From the NCBI GenBank assembly GCA_015295835.1, contig DVEG01000027.1, forward strand, positions 310,001 to 374,000: a stretch of 64,000 nucleotides of DNA, in the 5' to 3' direction. This document shows, one piece after another, positions 3,282-28,983 of this stretch (positions within the stretch are counted from its first letter, which is position 1; each line of letters starts with the position of its first letter). This DNA is from Oscillatoriaceae cyanobacterium M7585_C2015_266 (GTDB lineage Bacteria > Cyanobacteriota > Cyanobacteriia > Cyanobacteriales > Oscillatoriaceae). Below the pieces are notes generated by a model. It was not told the origin of the DNA. It made no database searches and worked only from the letters and a program-made list of their open reading frames with translations. The position numbers and the translations under genes are program-made.

Positions 3282-5102
3282 TTATATGGGTAACCGAACG
3301 ATAAATTGAGTAAGATTGTTTAAACTTTCAACAGTGAGTGAGCCGCCGCTTTGTTGTATCAGTTTTTGCACTAATGCCAACCCTAAGCCAGTGCCACCAT
3401 ATTTCCAGGGATCATTATTGGGAATACGGTAGAATTTATCGAAGATGCGGGGCAATTCTTCCGAGGGAATTTCTACACCTGTGTTAGTAATGATTATTTG
3501 TAGAAAACAAGGTTGATTGGGCGTTTCGTCGCGAATTATGTTAACTGTTAAGGAAATGGTTTCGCCTGTGGGTGTGTATTTGCACGCATTAGTTAGCAAT
3601 TCGGTGATGATGCGGCTAACACTGATAGAATCTATTTCTGTAGTTGGTAAGTCGGGGGCGATATTAACACGAAAGATTTGTTGCTGGTTTTGGGTACGGG
3701 CATGAAATGGCTCGATAACATGTTCAATCCAGTCACGAAGGTTAAGCGTTGAAAGTTGCCGGGAATATGTTCCTGCTTCCAGATATTGCAGGTTTAATAA
3801 ATCTTCGACTAAGCTTAATTCGCGATCGCACTCTTCCTGTAAAACTTGCAAATACTGTAGAGCTTTATCACTATGAGCCAATGATGGCAATTTTTCTGCA
3901 ATTATATCCCTTTCTTGCTGAAGTGTAGAAATCAACAACTTAATTACCATTTTCATGCTAGCAATCGGAGAGCGCAGCTCGTGGGAAATCGTACAAAGAA
4001 AGTCATTCTTAAGGTAGTTGAGTCGCTGAAGTTCCCTAACTTGAGCTTGGGCAAGTTCATAGAGACGAGCTTGACGCAAACCAAGAGCGCACTGGTTAGC
4101 AACTTGTTGCACTAGGTGTATTTCCATTTCGTCAAAAATAGAACCTGTATCTTTAAATAACCACAAGACTCCTAAAATTCCTGTTTCTTCGACGCGATCG
4201 TCAAAAATAGGGCAAGCAAGAATCGCTGCATTGTTGCTAATCGTTGGCGGTTGAATTTGACAAAAAACTAACCAACATTTTTGTTGTTGCAATTGTTTGT
4301 GTATCTCAGTAGCATCTGCCATATATATTTTTTGTTCCTGAGTTACAGATAGCCCTGATGCTACTGATTGATAGCAGATGGTTGAAGATTGACTGTCAGA
4401 GCCGTAAAGCAATGCATTACAGTATTTTAAGTTCAATGCAGCTGCTAATTCCTCTACAGCATATTGCAATATTTTATGACTATCTAGTGAATCTCGAAGC
4501 CGATCAAAAATACGTTTTATTGTCGCTTCAAAGTTTAAAGCTTGCTGTAATTCTATAGTGCGATCTTGTATCCGCCGCTCTAAATCACAATTTAATCGTT
4601 TGACTTCATCTTCAGCCCTCTGACGTTCTTGCACCTGTTTTTCTAATTGTTGATTTTTTTGAATTAGCAATTGCTGTTGTTGAATAAGTTGTTGACGCTG
4701 TTGCTGAATAATTAATTGATTTCTAATTCGAGCTAATACTTCTTGTTCTTGAAAAGGTTTTGTGATATAATCATGACCTCCCATTTCAAAAGCGCGGACT
4801 TTATCGTTCACTCTATCAAAAGCGCTAATAAAAATAATTGGAATGTGCCGCGTGACTTCGGAAGCTTTTAAGTGCTGGCAGACTTCATAGCCATCCATTC
4901 CCGGCATGTTAATATCTAGCAAGATCAAATCCGGTATTACTCGATGGGCTACTTCTATTGCTATTTTGCCATTCAGAGATTTGCGGACAAAATAACCCTG
5001 TGAAGCTAGGATATGGCTGAGCAAACGCACATTATCGACATTGTCATCTACAACTAAAATATTAATATTGGTATTTTTGACAGGTTTGATAAAAGCAGAC
5101 AT
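3282..5102 (-). CDS. REC-GAF sensor histidine kinase
   Basis: This 606-residue cytoplasmic hybrid kinase has an N-terminal receiver domain (residues 14-128, phosphoacceptor Asp63, conserved Lys115). A Gln-rich coiled coil follows (130-190), then a GAF domain (about 195-345). The HisKA helix carries His374 in SHELRSP, and the ATPase domain ends in the G2 motif GGTGLGLALVQKL. With the receiver at the N-terminus, the protein probably acts in a phosphorelay and receives phosphate from another kinase. No partner response regulator is adjacent. The pentapeptide-repeat gene lies upstream on the same strand, separated by an inverted-repeat element. Confidence 0.92.
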   Translation of the reverse strand: MSAFIKPVKNTNINILVVDDNVDNVRLLSHILASQGYFVRKSLNGKIAIEVAHRVIPDLILLDINMPGMDGYEVCQHLKASEVTRHIPIIFISAFDRVNDKVRAFEMGGHDYITKPFQEQEVLARIRNQLIIQQQRQQLIQQQQLLIQKNQQLEKQVQERQRAEDEVKRLNCDLERRIQDRTIELQQALNFEATIKRIFDRLRDSLDSHKILQYAVEELAAALNLKYCNALLYGSDSQSSTICYQSVASGLSVTQEQKIYMADATEIHKQLQQQKCWLVFCQIQPPTISNNAAILACPIFDDRVEETGILGVLWLFKDTGSIFDEMEIHLVQQVANQCALGLRQARLYELAQAQVRELQRLNYLKNDFLCTISHELRSPIASMKMVIKLLISTLQQERDIIAEKLPSLAHSDKALQYLQVLQEECDRELSLVEDLLNLQYLEAGTYSRQLSTLNLRDWIEHVIEPFHARTQNQQQIFRVNIAPDLPTTEIDSISVSRIITELLTNACKYTPTGETISLTVNIIRDETPNQPCFLQIIITNTGVEIPSEELPRIFDKFYRIPNNDPWKYGGTGLGLALVQKLIQQSGGSLTVESLNNLTQFIVRLPI

Positions 5103-6227: not shown

Positions 6228-6872
6228 CTATTCCTTGCGCCCACCGACGTCAGCCTTTTGACGTCCACCCAAACTTTCGATCGCCGCCAGTGCTCCGGCA
6301 GAGCCTGCCAAAATATCCCGTTCCTCTCCGCCCAGATACAAACGACCGAAGCTGCCCACCGGCTGAACCTCAAGAATATTAATTGACGCAGCCTTTTCCG
6401 CTTCGTTCGCAGCCAGCGCCGCATAAGCCGCTGGTTCGACTTCCAGAACGTAAAGAGTTTGCCCCGCCAAAAGCAACTGTCCGCGTCGATTCCGGTTAAT
6501 CAATTGGGTTTGATGAGCGTCGATATTGCGGATAATCTGACTGGAAATAACCCGTGGTTTGAGACAGTCGTTTTCACTGACGCCGATTGCCCTTAGAATC
6601 GCCTTACCTGCCGCCAGTGTTTCCCCCTGACGGCTAGAATGAATTTCCAGCAGCCCATAAAGCCTTTCAACAATCTGCACACCGGGGCGTACAGAGGCGG
6701 CTTTAAGAGCAATATCCGTAATTCGGTTAATTTCGATTCCGGGAGAAATTTCAATCCATAGAGAGGAATCTCCCGGTAGTGGCAAAAACCCCAGGGCTAC
6801 TGTGCCAATGTAAGCCGCGTGTTGGGGCTGCAATCTGTCTAGATACACATAACTGCGCAGTTCTATACCCAA
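6228..6872 (-). CDS. ccmP: Carboxysome shell protein CcmP (tandem BMC domains)
   Basis: The 214-residue sequence matches CcmP as I know it, from the start [12 protein letters not shown] through [32 protein letters not shown] and [18 protein letters not shown] to [14 protein letters not shown]. It contains two fused bacterial-microcompartment domains (about residues 1-105 and 106-205). CcmP forms pseudohexameric trimers that stack face to face in the beta-carboxysome shell and are thought to gate larger metabolites such as RuBP and 3-PGA. It is commonly found outside the main ccm operon, as here. It is divergent from def. Confidence 0.93.
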
Positions 6873-24529: not shown

Positions 24530-24775
24530 CTACTCTTGATTTTTCAATTGCTCTTCTTGCTCTTGAATAGCGCGTAGTATTTCTTCTTCTTGGATTTCAA
24601 ACTCTTCTTCGGAGATTTCACCCATATCGAAGGCGAGCTGTAGTGCCAAGAGTCGCTTTTTTAAATTTTCTTTTTCATCGATTTCGGCATTAGCACGTTC
24701 TAGAAGTTGTTCTCCAATCCAGAGGATGCCCTCAAGAGGACCAGTAATAGGCAAAGTAAGCAAGCGTAGAATCAT
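24530..24775 (-). CDS. gvpG: Gas vesicle protein GvpG
   Basis: The 81-residue protein starts with the family-typical MILRLLTLPITGPLEGILWIG and continues as an acidic helix (FDMGEISEEEFEIQEEEI). GvpG is a small accessory protein needed for vesicle assembly. It is the last gene of the minus-strand gvp series, 43 bases after gvpF/L. Confidence 0.92.
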   Translation of the reverse strand: MILRLLTLPITGPLEGILWIGEQLLERANAEIDEKENLKKRLLALQLAFDMGEISEEEFEIQEEEILRAIQEQEEQLKNQE

Positions 24776-24818: not shown

Positions 24819-25559
24819 TTAGAGGTAAGAGAGTTGAGCAAAGTTATAGGGGGCGGTAAAATTATTATAGCGGATGCGAAGACGAGATTCAAAATATCGG
24901 TCTAGGTTTTCGAGGTGAGCGGCAAATTTTTCTTCTTCATCCCATGCTATCAAATAAGAAGCATTGTAAATCATCGCTTCAGTCAGCCTTTCATTTTCCA
25001 CGACTTCCACTGCCAAAGGATTAAGTGTTTTCTGAAATACTTCAATAATTTTACGCTGACGTTGTTGCATTTCCCTTTCGATTTCTTGCCCGATGCTTAT
25101 CACCTGCTCTATGCCCAGCGGTTTTCCTTGCAGACTATCTCGTTTTGCTTTCAATTCGCCATTTTCTTCAATAAGTTGGTTTAACTCTGCAGTAGCATCC
25201 CAAAAAACCTTAATGCCGACTTCTCGTTTGCCTTCCAATTTTAAAAATAGCTGCTGCAATTTATCACCATAGGGTAAAATCAAATGTTGAGTCACCGTTT
25301 CCCATGCATCTACAATCAATCCAAATTGCAAAGGCAGGAGAGTGCGATATCCGTGCTGCATTGCTTCTTCTAAAACCTTTTCGTGCCCGAGCAGATTGCG
25401 GCGGCTGGCTAAATACCGTTCTTGTTGCGCTTCCGAATGCAAAAAAGCAAAACCATGCCACAATTTTACTTTCACAGGTTGATTATCCAAGCCTTTTACT
25501 TGCAAACCTTCAGGTCCAGGTTCAGGAAAAATCCCGTATAAATAAATACCGTATCCCAC
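24819..25559 (-). CDS. gvpF: Gas vesicle protein GvpF/GvpL
   Basis: The 246-residue protein starts GYGIYLYGIFPEPGPEGL, the hallmark of the GvpL/GvpF family. It shows the two-part layout of the family: an alpha/beta N-terminal domain and a helical second domain with VISIGQEIEREMQQRQ and a C-terminal RIRYNNFTAPYNFAQL. GvpF/L contacts GvpA during assembly. I prefer the GTG at 25559, with GGGGA nine bases upstream, over a TTG at 25568 that abuts the ribosome binding site. Only one F/L gene is present here. Confidence 0.92.
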   Translation of the reverse strand: MGYGIYLYGIFPEPGPEGLQVKGLDNQPVKVKLWHGFAFLHSEAQQERYLASRRNLLGHEKVLEEAMQHGYRTLLPLQFGLIVDAWETVTQHLILPYGDKLQQLFLKLEGKREVGIKVFWDATAELNQLIEENGELKAKRDSLQGKPLGIEQVISIGQEIEREMQQRQRKIIEVFQKTLNPLAVEVVENERLTEAMIYNASYLIAWDEEEKFAAHLENLDRYFESRLRIRYNNFTAPYNFAQLSYL

Positions 25560-25570
25560 CTTTAACAATC

Positions 25571-25608: not shown

Positions 25609-26073
25609 TCATACCTGTTTAGAAGTCAATACTAATTTTAACTTAGCGTGAATGAGATTGAGTTGTGCAAGACCTAAATCCACATTTCCTTCTATAACGA
25701 TGCCCGTATTTAGCAAGCGATCAAGTAATTCTAAAACAGAAGGATTGCTAGAGGTTTCCCCTGGATAGTAGCCGCCGTTTTTGGGGAGGAGGGTGCCGAT
25801 TTCTCCAAGATCAATATTTAAATCAGCGGGGTCAATTTCAAAGATTTCACACAGTTTGACGATTTGTGTTTCGAGCTGGCGCAGGCTTTCGGCGGCGCGT
25901 TCGAGCTGTTCATCTGTGAGAGTGCCTGCTTCCATGCGTCGAATCACTTGTGCTTCCATGAGTTGGCGCACGAGTTCGACGATTGTGAGCAGCAGGGGTG
26001 CTAAGCCAGCATTTTTTTTGCTGGTTGGCTGTAGCTGTGCGATCGCGTTATTGGATGATTCAGATGATAGCAT
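25609..26073 (-). CDS. gvpK: Gas vesicle protein GvpK
   Basis: The 154-residue protein matches GvpK: a helical core (GLAPLLLTIVELVRQLMEAQ, RRMEAGTLTDEQLERAAE), the LCEIFEIDPADLNIDLGEIG segment, and a C-terminal part that resembles GvpA (LELLDRLLNTGIVIEGNVDL). GvpK is a minor component essential for proper vesicle growth. It sits between gvpJ (41 bases) and gvpF/L (49 bases). Confidence 0.93.
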   Translation of the reverse strand: MLSSESSNNAIAQLQPTSKKNAGLAPLLLTIVELVRQLMEAQVIRRMEAGTLTDEQLERAAESLRQLETQIVKLCEIFEIDPADLNIDLGEIGTLLPKNGGYYPGETSSNPSVLELLDRLLNTGIVIEGNVDLGLAQLNLIHAKLKLVLTSKQV

Positions 26074-26114: not shown

Positions 26115-26486
26115 CTATGTGATATTCTCTGTTCCGGCTGACTGAGTAGCGGTGAGTGCGCGTAAGCAGCGGATTTCTTCCTGCAATTGCTTCACCTGTT
26201 CCATAAGTTGTTGATTAGATTCTATCAGGTTGCGAGTTTGGGAGTTGAGATAGGGATCGCTTTCCCACCAGTTAATCCCGATTTCTTTAGCTTTGTCTAC
26301 CGAGGAAATCAGCAAGCGGATGCGAACGTTGAGCAATTCTGTTGAGCCAACGGATACAGAAATATCGCCGGCGATGACGATACCTTTGTCGAGAACTCTT
26401 TCTAGGATATCAGCAAGGGTAGAGCCGGAGGTGGCACTGGGGATTCCCCGGTTGGCGGCAGAGTTAGGGTGCGAGATTGTTGTCAC
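26115..26486 (-). CDS. gvpJ: Gas vesicle protein GvpJ (GvpA-like)
   Basis: The 123-residue protein contains a GvpA-type core at residues 20-75 ([37 protein letters not shown]). A helical C-terminal extension absent from GvpA ends in a coiled coil ([18 protein letters not shown]). GvpJ is a minor shell protein thought to act at the tips or at nucleation. The GTG start overlaps the gvpN stop by four bases (GTGA), indicating translational coupling. Confidence 0.92.
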
Positions 26487-27658
26487 GATTGGTTTTCTCC
26501 TCTAGCGACAAAGAGGCGCTCGTCGCGCTGTTTGAGTATGCCTTTTTTAAGAAGCGATCGCAGCGCGTCGATAGTTTGAATTCGGTTAATTTGCAAGGCG
26601 GCTTCTATTTCGGAAACTTTAGCTCCCCCTGATTTTAGCAAATAGGCATATATTTCCGACTCATAGGGAACACTTTCGGGTTTTAAGGAAGCGGGCACTT
26701 CCGGGTTTGTAATTTGGCTGTCATTTTTTAGCTGATTTTCTCCCACAATCAGTTCTATAATAGAGTGCTCCCGTTCGCGCGGGAGTGACTCGATCACCTC
26801 ATCGAGCAATTTTAGGGCTTTTTCCGGCTCTAGAGAGGTGCGAGACAAAAGCACGTCGGCACAAGTTTCTCGAAATTCTTCGCAGCTTGGTGTAGCTTGG
26901 ATGCCATATTCTTTGCAGATTTTGCTGATTATCAAACCTGAGCGCAAACCAGAAGTTTTTTTCGAGCCTGTTCGTTCTCGAAAATTTCTCACCACTTGCA
27001 CAATTTTCTCAGCATTTTGGCGATCAATACCTGTTTTTTGCATGAGGATTTCGGTTTGGGTGTTTTCGTCTGGCTCTGGCATATCGAGAGTCACCAACCG
27101 ATCCATCAAAGCATCTTGCGTTGCGTGAACTCCGCAATATTCCTCTGGGTTTGATGTTAAAATAGCGCGAAATTGGGGATGAACGCGAATGTATTCTGAG
27201 CGGTTGCCGTTGGGGGGCAGTACCAGGAGTTTTTCTTCTAGCGCGGAGAGGAGGATGTTGTTTACTTCGGGGCGTGAGCGGTTGAATTCGTCGTAAACGA
27301 GGGTGAATCCTTCTCGACAGGCGAGGGTGAGTCGGGAATCCATCCAATTTTGCCGCAGTTCGTCTTCGATTTTGACGACGCTGTGAATGTAGTTATCGAC
27401 GACTTTTTTGCGGGTATAGCCTGAATTATTGCCGATCAAATCTGAGCTTTTTAGGTCATCATCGCCAAAAATCAGCATGATCGGACGTCCCAAAAGGTAT
27501 GCTAAGTGTAGCGCTAAAGTGGTTTTCCCGGTGCCTGCAGGTCCTCTAAGGTGAACAGCAAAACCGGTTTGCAGATAGCGCAGCGCCCGCTCTGCGGTTC
27601 TCGTCGTGGTTGGTGTTTGCACAAATCCTTTGGGACGAGCTTGAAGCACTGTTACCAT
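26483..27658 (-). CDS. gvpN: Gas vesicle AAA+ ATPase GvpN with extra C-terminal domain
   Basis: The 391-residue protein is a MoxR-type AAA+ ATPase. Walker A is GPAGTGKT at 39-46 and Walker B is LVYDEFNR near 119; a sensor region ([14 protein letters not shown]) and the Arg-rich [14 protein letters not shown] follow. GvpN binds GvpC and is needed for vesicle growth beyond small bicones. Residues about 337-385 form an added domain ([20 protein letters not shown] through [15 protein letters not shown]) that looks like a winged helix and is homologous to the C-terminus of the neighbouring GvpC. It starts 33 bases after gvpC and is translationally coupled to gvpJ. Confidence 0.94.
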
Positions 27659-27691
27659 ATTATTATATTTAATTATTATATATATGGGGCG

Positions 27692-28624
27692 TTATTGCAG
27701 AGTTATTTCTTCTACGGCTGTGTAGGTGCGATCGCGCTCTATTATTAATCCTTTTTGCATGAGAGAGCGCAAGATATCTACTGCTTGGATTCGTTTTAGT
27801 TTTAATGCACTTTCGATTTCTGCCAGTCGTGTGCTTTTATTTTCACATATGTAGTTGTATACTTTTTCTTCCCATTCGATGTTTATTGATTTTTCGCTGT
27901 TATCTTGTGAGTATATTTTTTCTTCTGTTGGCAGTAGCGTCTCGACTTTCTTTGTTTCTGAAGTTTCGACGATTTGCTGTTCTTTTATCGCGCTGCCCCA
28001 TACTTCTTGGAAGAGATTTATGCGCTCTTGCCGAAGTTGGGAGCGCAGGGCGAGCGCCTGTCTTTCTCTATTTTCTTTGCAATATTGCAGGTATTTCGAT
28101 GTTTCAATTTTTAGTTCTTTTCTGAATTCTTCTAATTCTCGATTCAGTTGGGTTTTCAAAAATGCTTGTTTTGTTTGATTTATTTGTCGTTGTTTAGCTA
28201 CTGTTCTTTTCAGTTTTGTGTAATAATCGTGCAATTTCTCTGATTGCTTTTTAGCCATTTCCATGCGGGCAGAGCGGGCGGAAGCAAGTAAATTAGCGGT
28301 TTGTTCGGCAAGCGATCGCTTTAATTTTTTAGCTTGTTCTTGACGATGAGCGCGAGTATTTTTCAAAAATGTTTGAGTTTCCGATTGTAGGTTTAGAATC
28401 AATCTTTTTCGCTCTTCTGCGCGCTGAAGCTCAAGGCGAGCGCGGTTTTCTTCCGCCTGTGCCAATTTTTCCCTAAATTCTCTCAGCTCTCTTTTGTAAT
28501 TTTCTGCTTTTTCTTGACGTTCTTTTTGCAATTGCGTCAATTGCGAATTTACTTGAGAGGAGCGTTGTCTTACTTCTTGCAGGCGTTGTTCTCTTTCTCG
28601 ACGCCACTGATCCCATAGAGCCAT
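27692..28624 (-). CDS. gvpC: Gas vesicle outer protein GvpC with C-terminal winged-helix-like extension
   Basis: The 310-residue protein starts with a charged helix, then shows degenerate 33-residue GvpC repeats with the ETxxFL...RxxQAxK pattern (ETQTFLKNTRAHRQEQAKK and later copies), forming a long alpha-helix. The repeat region ends around residue 218 with INLFQEVWG, where Anabaena-type GvpC proteins stop. A linker leads to a domain at about 253-305 (VYNYICENKSTRLAEIESAL, LRSLMQKGLIIERDR) homologous to the GvpN C-terminus. GvpC binds the outside of the GvpA shell and raises its critical pressure. The ATG has AAGGAGAA seven bases upstream. Confidence 0.85.
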   Translation of the reverse strand: MALWDQWRREREQRLQEVRQRSSQVNSQLTQLQKERQEKAENYKRELREFREKLAQAEENRARLELQRAEERKRLILNLQSETQTFLKNTRAHRQEQAKKLKRSLAEQTANLLASARSARMEMAKKQSEKLHDYYTKLKRTVAKQRQINQTKQAFLKTQLNRELEEFRKELKIETSKYLQYCKENRERQALALRSQLRQERINLFQEVWGSAIKEQQIVETSETKKVETLLPTEEKIYSQDNSEKSINIEWEEKVYNYICENKSTRLAEIESALKLKRIQAVDILRSLMQKGLIIERDRTYTAVEEITLQ

Positions 28625-28755: not shown

Positions 28756-28983
28756 CTACGTCACTGGAACCGCCGGCACAGCAGCTTGAGCCGTCAAACC
28801 TACAGCTTCGGCATACTTGAGATAGGTTTCTACAGAAGCAATAACCACTCTAGCTTCGATCGCAAGCAGTTCTATTCCCACGAGAGAAACTCGTGCCCAT
28901 GCATCAATGACGATACCTTTGTCCAAAATGCGATCAATTACTTCAGCCAAGCTAGAAGAAGAATTCACTTTTTCAACTGCCAT
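28756..28983 (-). CDS. gvpA: Gas vesicle structural protein GvpA
   Basis: The 75-residue protein is the near-invariant shell subunit. It starts [20 protein letters not shown], contains the amphipathic beta-turn-beta core ([18 protein letters not shown]) and ends with helix [15 protein letters not shown]. GvpA polymerises into the ribbed, gas-permeable, water-excluding wall. An AGGAGAT ribosome binding site lies about 11 bases upstream. It is the first gene of the cluster and only one copy is present in the window. Confidence 0.98.

Follow-up and report, generated by a model that had tools for sequence, protein, structure and literature searches.

The gas vesicle (gvp) locus of Oscillatoriaceae cyanobacterium M7585_C2015_266 raises the question of why two of its products, the ATPase GvpN and the structural shell protein GvpC, should end in domains of similar sequence. 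The window analysed is a 64,000 nt stretch of this genome (assembly GCA_015295835.1, contig DVEG01000027.1, positions 310,001 to 374,000 of the forward strand), within which gvpC (27692..28624, minus strand) is an open reading frame of 310 amino acids (aa) and gvpN (26483..27658, minus strand) one of 391 aa. Sequence comparison and structural modelling indicate that the two proteins carry paralogous TrmB-like winged-helix domains. What is at stake is the action of GvpN during vesicle growth and the route by which GvpC reaches the shell.

Homology and predicted fold of the GvpN and GvpC C-termini

The homologous regions comprise approximately aa 331-385 of GvpN and aa 250-304 of GvpC. Comparison of the two full-length proteins by BLASTP returned a single significant segment (GvpN 324-385 against GvpC 243-303, E value 1e-12), in which 24 of 62 positions were identical and 45 similar, with one gap. 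The local alignment score between the tails was 126, against a maximum of 53 among 2000 shuffles of the GvpC tail, and profile-profile comparison of 47 GvpC with 46 GvpN tails, a check proposed in an earlier note made from the sequence alone, gave an E value of 2.7e-33; chance similarity was rejected by all three approaches. The homology claimed in that note is thereby confirmed, and its count of 19 identities over about 50 gap-free positions was close to the 20 identities recomputed from an ungapped alignment of 64 positions.

Both tails match the TrmB family, PF01978: that of GvpN at aa 332-381 (E value 4.3e-9, 36.5 bits against a cut-off of 25.6), and that of GvpC at aa 251-302 (E value 1.1e-5, 25.6 bits, exactly the cut-off as printed), the latter rising to 29.4 bits when the tail was scanned alone. 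At an E value of 0.01 or below, the same family was matched by 40 of 47 GvpC tails and 31 of 46 GvpN tails. AlphaFold2 (AF2) models of each tail agreed with this assignment. That of the GvpC tail, from a 47-row alignment, has the order helix-helix-helix-strand-strand with a mean predicted local distance difference test (pLDDT) score of 84; that of the GvpN tail has helices at aa 333-343, 348-355 and 359-371 and strands at aa 375-378 and 381-384, with pLDDT block means of 93-96 over aa 331-380. A Foldseek comparison of the GvpC-tail model with the PDB gave 1852 matches at E values up to 10, none of them at 0.001; the best E value was 7.9e-3, and the probability was 0.99-1.00 among the matches listed and 1.00 for the best. 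The best 50 of the 1852 were mostly what we take to be winged-helix proteins (IclR, MarR, CadC, 1sfx, FtsK gamma and Z-alpha). The fold proposed beforehand, a helix-turn-helix with a wing, is thus supported for both tails by PF01978 and AF2, and for that of GvpC also by Foldseek, and the predicted structures do not differ in fold.

Within GvpC, the shell-binding region (aa 1-210, 27995..28624, minus strand) ends in the motif VWG at aa 208-210, and a linker (aa 211-244, 27893..27994) separates this from the C-terminal winged helix-turn-helix (wHTH; aa 245-303, 27716..27892), the domain proper starting near aa 250. It therefore lies beyond the shell-binding part of the protein; the earlier note would have it begin past the point where Anabaena-type GvpC ends (LFQEVWG against FVSIFG). 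Of 61 tail-bearing GvpC proteins, 58 have the same order, with [VI][WFY]G followed by a linker between 25 and 142 aa long (median 68) and then the domain, and residues R38, V42, L48 and Y61 were invariant in 47 GvpC tails. In GvpN, the wHTH (aa 329-385, 26504..26674, minus strand) follows a MoxR-type AAA+ ATPase core (aa 12-273, 26840..27625), recognised by TIGR02640 and by structural alignment with VIA-align, and a linker (aa 302-326, 26681..26755) modelled with low confidence (pLDDT < 50).

GvpN matches the equivalog model TIGR02640 with an E value of 1.5e-116 (388.5 bits against a cut-off of 266.8). The 33-residue repeats of GvpC were detected by PF01304 (Gas_vesicle_C; 21.7 bits against a cut-off of 21, the best stretch being aa 78-105) and fell slightly below the cut-off of TIGR02641 (18.4 against 18.8 bits); gvpC also lies between gvpA and gvpN with all three on the minus strand, the arrangement by which a cyanobacterial-type GvpC is recognised. 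The neighbouring genes, likewise on the minus strand, are gvpA (28756..28983; NF006874, E value 6.2e-41), a gvpJ-type gene (26115..26486; PF00741, and NF046090 at an E value of 6.4e-16, below cut-off), gvpK (25609..26073; PF05121, E value 7.9e-33), gvpF/L (24819..25568; NF052351, over cut-off, and PF06386) and gvpG (24530..24775; PF05120, E value 4.4e-23). The GvpK of this cluster has a shell fold fused to it: its GvpK domain is followed by a Gas_vesicle domain of the GvpA type (aa 112-150; PF00741, E value 5.7e-13).

Distribution, origin and loss of the two tails

The distribution of the tails was surveyed in 127 loci: 46 drawn with the core-only TIGR02640 model (L033-L078), 46 of the 292 genomes sampled across the phylum having a GvpN above the family cut-off; 80 from a genome scan; and the window itself. 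Removal of 12 duplicate pairs between the sets left 115, of which three were unscored (L139, the contig of which starts at gvpN, and L036 and L049, which have no upstream gvpC candidate). The 80-locus set favours tail-bearing loci, because the scan patterns included tail peptides. Tails were scored at E values below 1e-3 with a hidden Markov model seeded with the two window tails, and in tail-less loci GvpC was assigned by position only. Three alignments were used, each with the window added: A1, with 46 of 47 GvpC-tail rows; A2, with 45 of 45 GvpN-tail rows; and A3, with 33 of 39 full-length rows, nine further full-length rows having been excluded when their start motif was not found.

Both tails were present in 51 of the 112 scored loci, only that of GvpN in 14, only that of GvpC in ten, and neither in 37, including five (L042, L143, L144, L146 and L147) without a gvpC candidate between gvpA and gvpN. 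In the core-only set, the GvpN tail was found in 23 of 46 loci and the GvpC tail in 16, all of which also have the GvpN tail. Both tails have been kept across Leptolyngbya-, Phormidium-, Planktothrix- and Roseofilum-type cyanobacteria; neither was found in the surveyed Microcystis loci or in Anabaena sp. FACHB-1237. The ten GvpC-only loci are Leptolyngbya-like, and one of them, L133, retains pieces of the GvpN tail in other frames, suggestive of a broken frame; it was scored as lacking that tail, as was L157, where such pieces are likewise present. The GvpN and GvpC tails are therefore not an obligate pair.

When 60 genomes of the same order were searched with the GvpC-tail profile, 15 matches below 1e-6 fitted gvpN or gvpC by place and frame length, an assignment made by reading the rows of the output and not by opening each locus; four other, weaker matches had E values of 2.5e-4 to 1.4e-3. 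Confined in this way to gvp-like loci, the domain seems to be a branch of the winged-helix fold particular to gas vesicles.

Some loci depart from the usual arrangement. In two of the core-only set (L033 and L035, family code f6) the GvpC tail is carried by a gene linked to gvpA some 7 kb away, the cluster being rearranged such that gvpA and the tailed gvpC lie approximately 6-7 kb downstream of gvpN; the GvpN cores of this pair group apart from those of other f6 genomes, and horizontal transfer of the cluster is possible. Three early-branching GvpC proteins (L041:7896-8933, minus strand; L043:5837-6958, plus strand; L044:5985-6968, plus strand) have a different conserved C-terminal domain of about 60 aa past a VWG or VWS motif, which had no Pfam match in the two scanned (L041 and L043) and did not recur at any other place among the 127 loci. 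In L138 (8135-10420), the ATPase core and the winged-helix tail of a 762 aa GvpN open frame are set apart by a stretch several hundred residues long.

The earlier note held that a survey finding separately arisen and independently occurring tails would speak against a shared module. On the first count its proposal stands, as a single split between the GvpN and GvpC tails is not rejected; on the second the tails are partly independent, given the 14 GvpN-only and ten GvpC-only loci. In a quick tree of 66 GvpN and 61 GvpC tails, built on 53 columns and with many open forks, the N and C labels required four changes, compared with 42.5 when shuffled, and holding all GvpC tails in one clade improved on the free quick tree by 12 log units (approximately unbiased test, p-AU 0.73). 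Recent gene conversion between the tails within genomes was accordingly considered unsupported; there is a small within-genome excess of identity between the N and C tails (41.4% against 39.7%, with one of 2000 permutations as high). The simplest reading of these sequences is a single old duplication of the C-terminal domain between neighbouring genes, followed by separate descent.

Such a history leaves room for the domain to be a passenger of the gene-end duplication, without a joint role, each copy stabilising its own protein, which we consider very unlikely. It would sit comfortably with the repeated losses, as the GvpN tail has been lost 14 to 18 times by a Dollo count, and with the lack of either tail in Microcystis loci and Anabaena sp. 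FACHB-1237. The argument against it comes from the retention of both tails over the wide range of cyanobacteria listed above, from the four invariant GvpC-tail residues and from selection. The ratio of non-synonymous to synonymous substitution rates (dN/dS) was 0.00-0.18 for GvpN tails in 11 groups of close relatives and for GvpC tails in nine, and 0.02-0.17 for the GvpN core in 12, with a dS above 1 in several cases; both tails are under purifying selection. Over the 51 paired genomes the mean distance was 0.65 among GvpC tails, 1.32 among GvpN tails and 0.28 in the GvpN core, the GvpC tails thus being more conserved than those of GvpN. The shared domain is real, conserved and functionally constrained.

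Loss of the tails has nonetheless occurred, and most conspicuously in a clade of 41 loci including Microcystis, Nostoc, Calothrix, Dolichospermum and Sphaerospermopsis, in which the GvpC tail is absent, having been lost once, and 12 loci still have the GvpN tail, which was lost nine times under the Dollo count. Decaying GvpN tails can be seen there, in the form of a stop at the first helix (L066, L151 and L154) or an eroded end (L062 and L158). The GvpC tail was also lost separately in Planktothrix rubescens and in Arthrospira, where the GvpN tail is retained. Two stray copies of the GvpC linker in the P. rubescens locus (L085:4925-4999 and 6545-6619) end about where the winged helix would start and are apparently what remains of the tail. 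In Arthrospira sp. PCC 9108 (L091:7121-8150), the gvpN-adjacent gvpC has its winged-helix end in another frame with an in-frame stop, on account of which the locus was scored as GvpC-tail-less; two further gvpC-like copies at this locus are interrupted. The much-studied gas vesicles of, for example, Microcystis would therefore come from a clade without the GvpC tail, Anabaena flos-aquae being outside the sample.

Candidate partners of the domain

The favoured reading, to which we assign a little less than an even chance, is that the wHTH domains are a protein-protein docking module between the GvpN ATPase and the GvpC-coated shell. GvpC covers the outer shell surface (PMC10185304), and the GvpN of Anabaena 7120 is an active ATPase (PMC7204071). 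Docking would have the wHTH of GvpC, on the outside of the vesicle, hanging off the shell via its linker and meeting the C-terminal wHTH of GvpN at the helix-3 face, in direct contact or in mixed dimers. This pairing would hold the ATPase at the shell during vesicle growth and the laying down of GvpC; in lineages losing the GvpC domain, that of GvpN would have been left without a partner and tended to decay, as the pattern of losses suggests.

Helix 3 is the DNA-reading helix of wHTH regulators. In the AF2 secondary structure, it corresponds to aa 278-290 of GvpC (27755..27793, minus strand), with Ile 279 at the position termed 'position 3' here, and to aa 359-371 of GvpN (26546..26584, minus strand), with Ile 360. 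Across the 51 paired genomes, position 3 is F, V, I or L in 50 GvpC tails and F, V, I, Y or L in 43 GvpN tails, and in GvpC position 6 is V or I in all 51 and position 7 D or E in 50. Among eight distinct same-genome wHTH matches, aligned by eye, position 3 was never F, V or I, position 6 had S, T, R or H in every case, and seven had a basic residue at position 7. The same position 3 was the only one of 48 columns to pass correction for concordance between the GvpN and GvpC tails (p 4e-4) in a phylogeny-aware simulation on the GvpN-core tree, comprising 5000 draws with a shared root state; agreement was 63% within genomes compared with 33% between them. Column 7, in helix 1, which was matched in none of 300 draws of a first simulation, failed correction at 5000 and was discarded. 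Helix-3 composition and position-3 co-variation together favour docking via the helix-3 face, whether tail to tail or on a common partner.

The composition of this helix also bears on a role in binding nucleic acid, with the domains acting as autoregulators of the gvp operon or tethering vesicles and ATPase to the nucleoid. The closest Pfam family, TrmB, consists of DNA-binding regulators, many DNA-binding regulators or domains (IclR, MarR, FtsK gamma and Z-alpha) occur among the 50 fold matches listed, and the net charge of the tails resembles that of the same-genome wHTH matches. These listed matches also include protein-binding winged helices, as we take the cullin WHB to be, and a structural shell protein such as GvpC would be an odd site for a regulator. 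Helix 3 of GvpC is hydrophobic at positions 3 and 6 and acidic at position 7 in nearly all tails, arguing weakly against DNA binding, and there was no inverted repeat of at least 10 bases within 120 bases in the 707 bases upstream of gvpA, which contain one 10-base direct repeat. Between the functions suggested by the earlier note, docking is thus favoured and DNA binding disfavoured, if only indirectly, by the helix-3 composition and the lack of such a repeat; we regard nucleic acid binding as unlikely.

The rates at which the tails were lost likewise inform the choice of partner. Under a loss-only model, the rate of GvpN-tail loss per unit branch was 6.9 where the GvpC tail was absent and 0.52 where it was present, roughly a tenfold difference (likelihood ratio, LR, 24.9). 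The corresponding rates were 5.7 and 0.54 (LR 19.0) after removal of early-branching tail-less rows, and 8.7 and 0.18 (LR 23.4) in a model with gains. Such a dependence is not predicted if both wHTH domains simply bind one third partner, be it another Gvp, a cytoskeletal or a nucleoid protein, so as to serve as an address tag instead of a handshake. A common partner would explain why one helix-3 position varies in step between GvpN and GvpC, and why either tail can persist alone, as in 24 of 112 loci; the similar purifying selection on both tails also fits it. No third protein with a cognate feature turned up, no systematic search for one having been made, and we think a common partner unlikely.

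Several observations weigh against docking by direct pairing. Ten of the 112 loci have the GvpC tail alone and 14 the GvpN tail alone, so pairing cannot be obligate. The loss-rate test is not clean, being pseudo-replicated in that it draws mostly on one 41-locus clade; the dependence is barely reciprocated, loss of the GvpC tail giving an LR of 4.9 with respect to the GvpN tail (0.5 without the early-branching rows); and independent-pairs tests of tail co-presence had too few pairs (median p 1). The position-3 co-variation, when assessed by independent pairs, rests on two to four starred pairs, too few to confirm it (median p 1), and a mirror-tree comparison gave a weak signal (partial r 0.12, with 34 of 999 permutations as high). 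In GvpN, position 7 of helix 3 is D or E in only 24 of the 51 paired genomes. Finally, helix-3 composition is weak evidence against DNA binding, because position 7 is D in 1sfx too, the nearest PDB sequence match, which carries the annotation of a putative HTH regulator, and because the TrmB consensus presumably has an aromatic residue at position 6 and an acid at position 7; the net charge of the tails, no different from that of the same-genome wHTH matches, was abandoned as a test of DNA binding that does not discriminate. Were docking to hold in spite of these points, the action of GvpN on the growing vesicle and the delivery of GvpC could be tested directly by cutting or swapping one 55 aa domain, and the domain would offer a natural means of attaching proteins to the gas vesicles used as ultrasound reporters.

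Comparison with known systems

The similarity between GvpC and GvpN is only partly new, having been noted before for Planktothrix. In the portion of a 2017 report available (PMC5259702), a 28 aa stretch at the C-terminus of Planktothrix GvpC40 is described as matching Planktothrix GvpN at 64% identity, and a stretch of 60 aa as shared with Geitlerinema GvpC. This is the same C-terminal region as the present domain; in that portion no domain, fold or function is named, and the comparison is limited to Planktothrix and Geitlerinema. The domain helps to explain a large size class of cyanobacterial GvpC, approximately 40 kDa in non-planktic Planktothrix according to the same text (PMC5259702). Literature linking gas vesicle GvpC or GvpN to a winged-helix, TrmB or DNA-binding domain was not found in a search that left out most subscription papers, and publications on gas vesicles mentioning both a helix-turn-helix and GvpN concern transcription regulators, judging by their titles and the openings of their abstracts. 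Within these bounds, what is new is which domain and fold this is, where it has spread and been lost, that it probably arose once, and a mechanism open to test.

The gvp domain resembles the TrmB family in that both window tails reach the curated cut-off and are predicted to adopt the helix-helix-helix-strand-strand fold. It differs in being an appendix of about 55 aa at the C-terminus of an AAA+ ATPase and of a shell protein, in having no sugar-binding regulator domain beside it in the Pfam scan, and in its hydrophobic residue at position 3 of helix 3. The GvpN core, in turn, has the fold of the MoxR-type AAA+ ATPases CbbQ and NorQ, its best structural matches in VIA-align (Z scores of 15.0-17.7 for the top ten entries), which operate with a dedicated adaptor (CbbO and NorD, respectively). 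The top ten chains align only within aa 7-294 of GvpN, such that the wHTH tail is without a counterpart in the CbbQ and NorQ alignments, in a list that barely probes the tail; the RuvB and ORC rows of this list span it only at a root-mean-square deviation above 16 and were not used.

The closest functional parallel is in haloarchaea. In Halobacterium salinarum, GvpC has a small globular C-terminal domain after its repeats, which was shown by experiment to be bound by GvpN and GvpO and also self-associates (PMC9372576); by analogy, this lends support to docking in cyanobacteria. The haloarchaeal domain is of another family. In the gvpC of Halobacterium plasmid PHS1 (L189:1173-2318), aa 317-371 match the ROS/MucR zinc-finger regulators (Pfam ROS_MUCR, E value 1.9e-6, over cut-off), the match being to a protein with many chance-like coiled-coil matches. 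The PHS1 GvpN shows neither a domain of the ROS_MUCR type nor any homology to the plasmid's GvpC (best E value 2.0), so domain sharing between the two proteins was rejected for haloarchaea, and the wHTH model, when run on the GvpN of Halobacterium and Octadecabacter, gave only a chance match of 2.7 bits inside the Octadecabacter core. Haloarchaeal GvpC nevertheless provides another example of this protein ending in a regulator-type domain, and as its GvpN-binding domain belongs to a different family, the GvpC C-terminus may be a slot for docking domains. It is conceivable, though on balance doubtful, that this end is a general GvpN-docking slot filled at least twice by repurposed DNA-binding folds of transcription factors: in haloarchaea by a Ros/MucR-type zinc finger, and in cyanobacteria by a TrmB-like winged helix mirrored on GvpN, the two winged helices forming a cognate pair with co-evolving recognition helices that several bloom-forming lineages would have given up.

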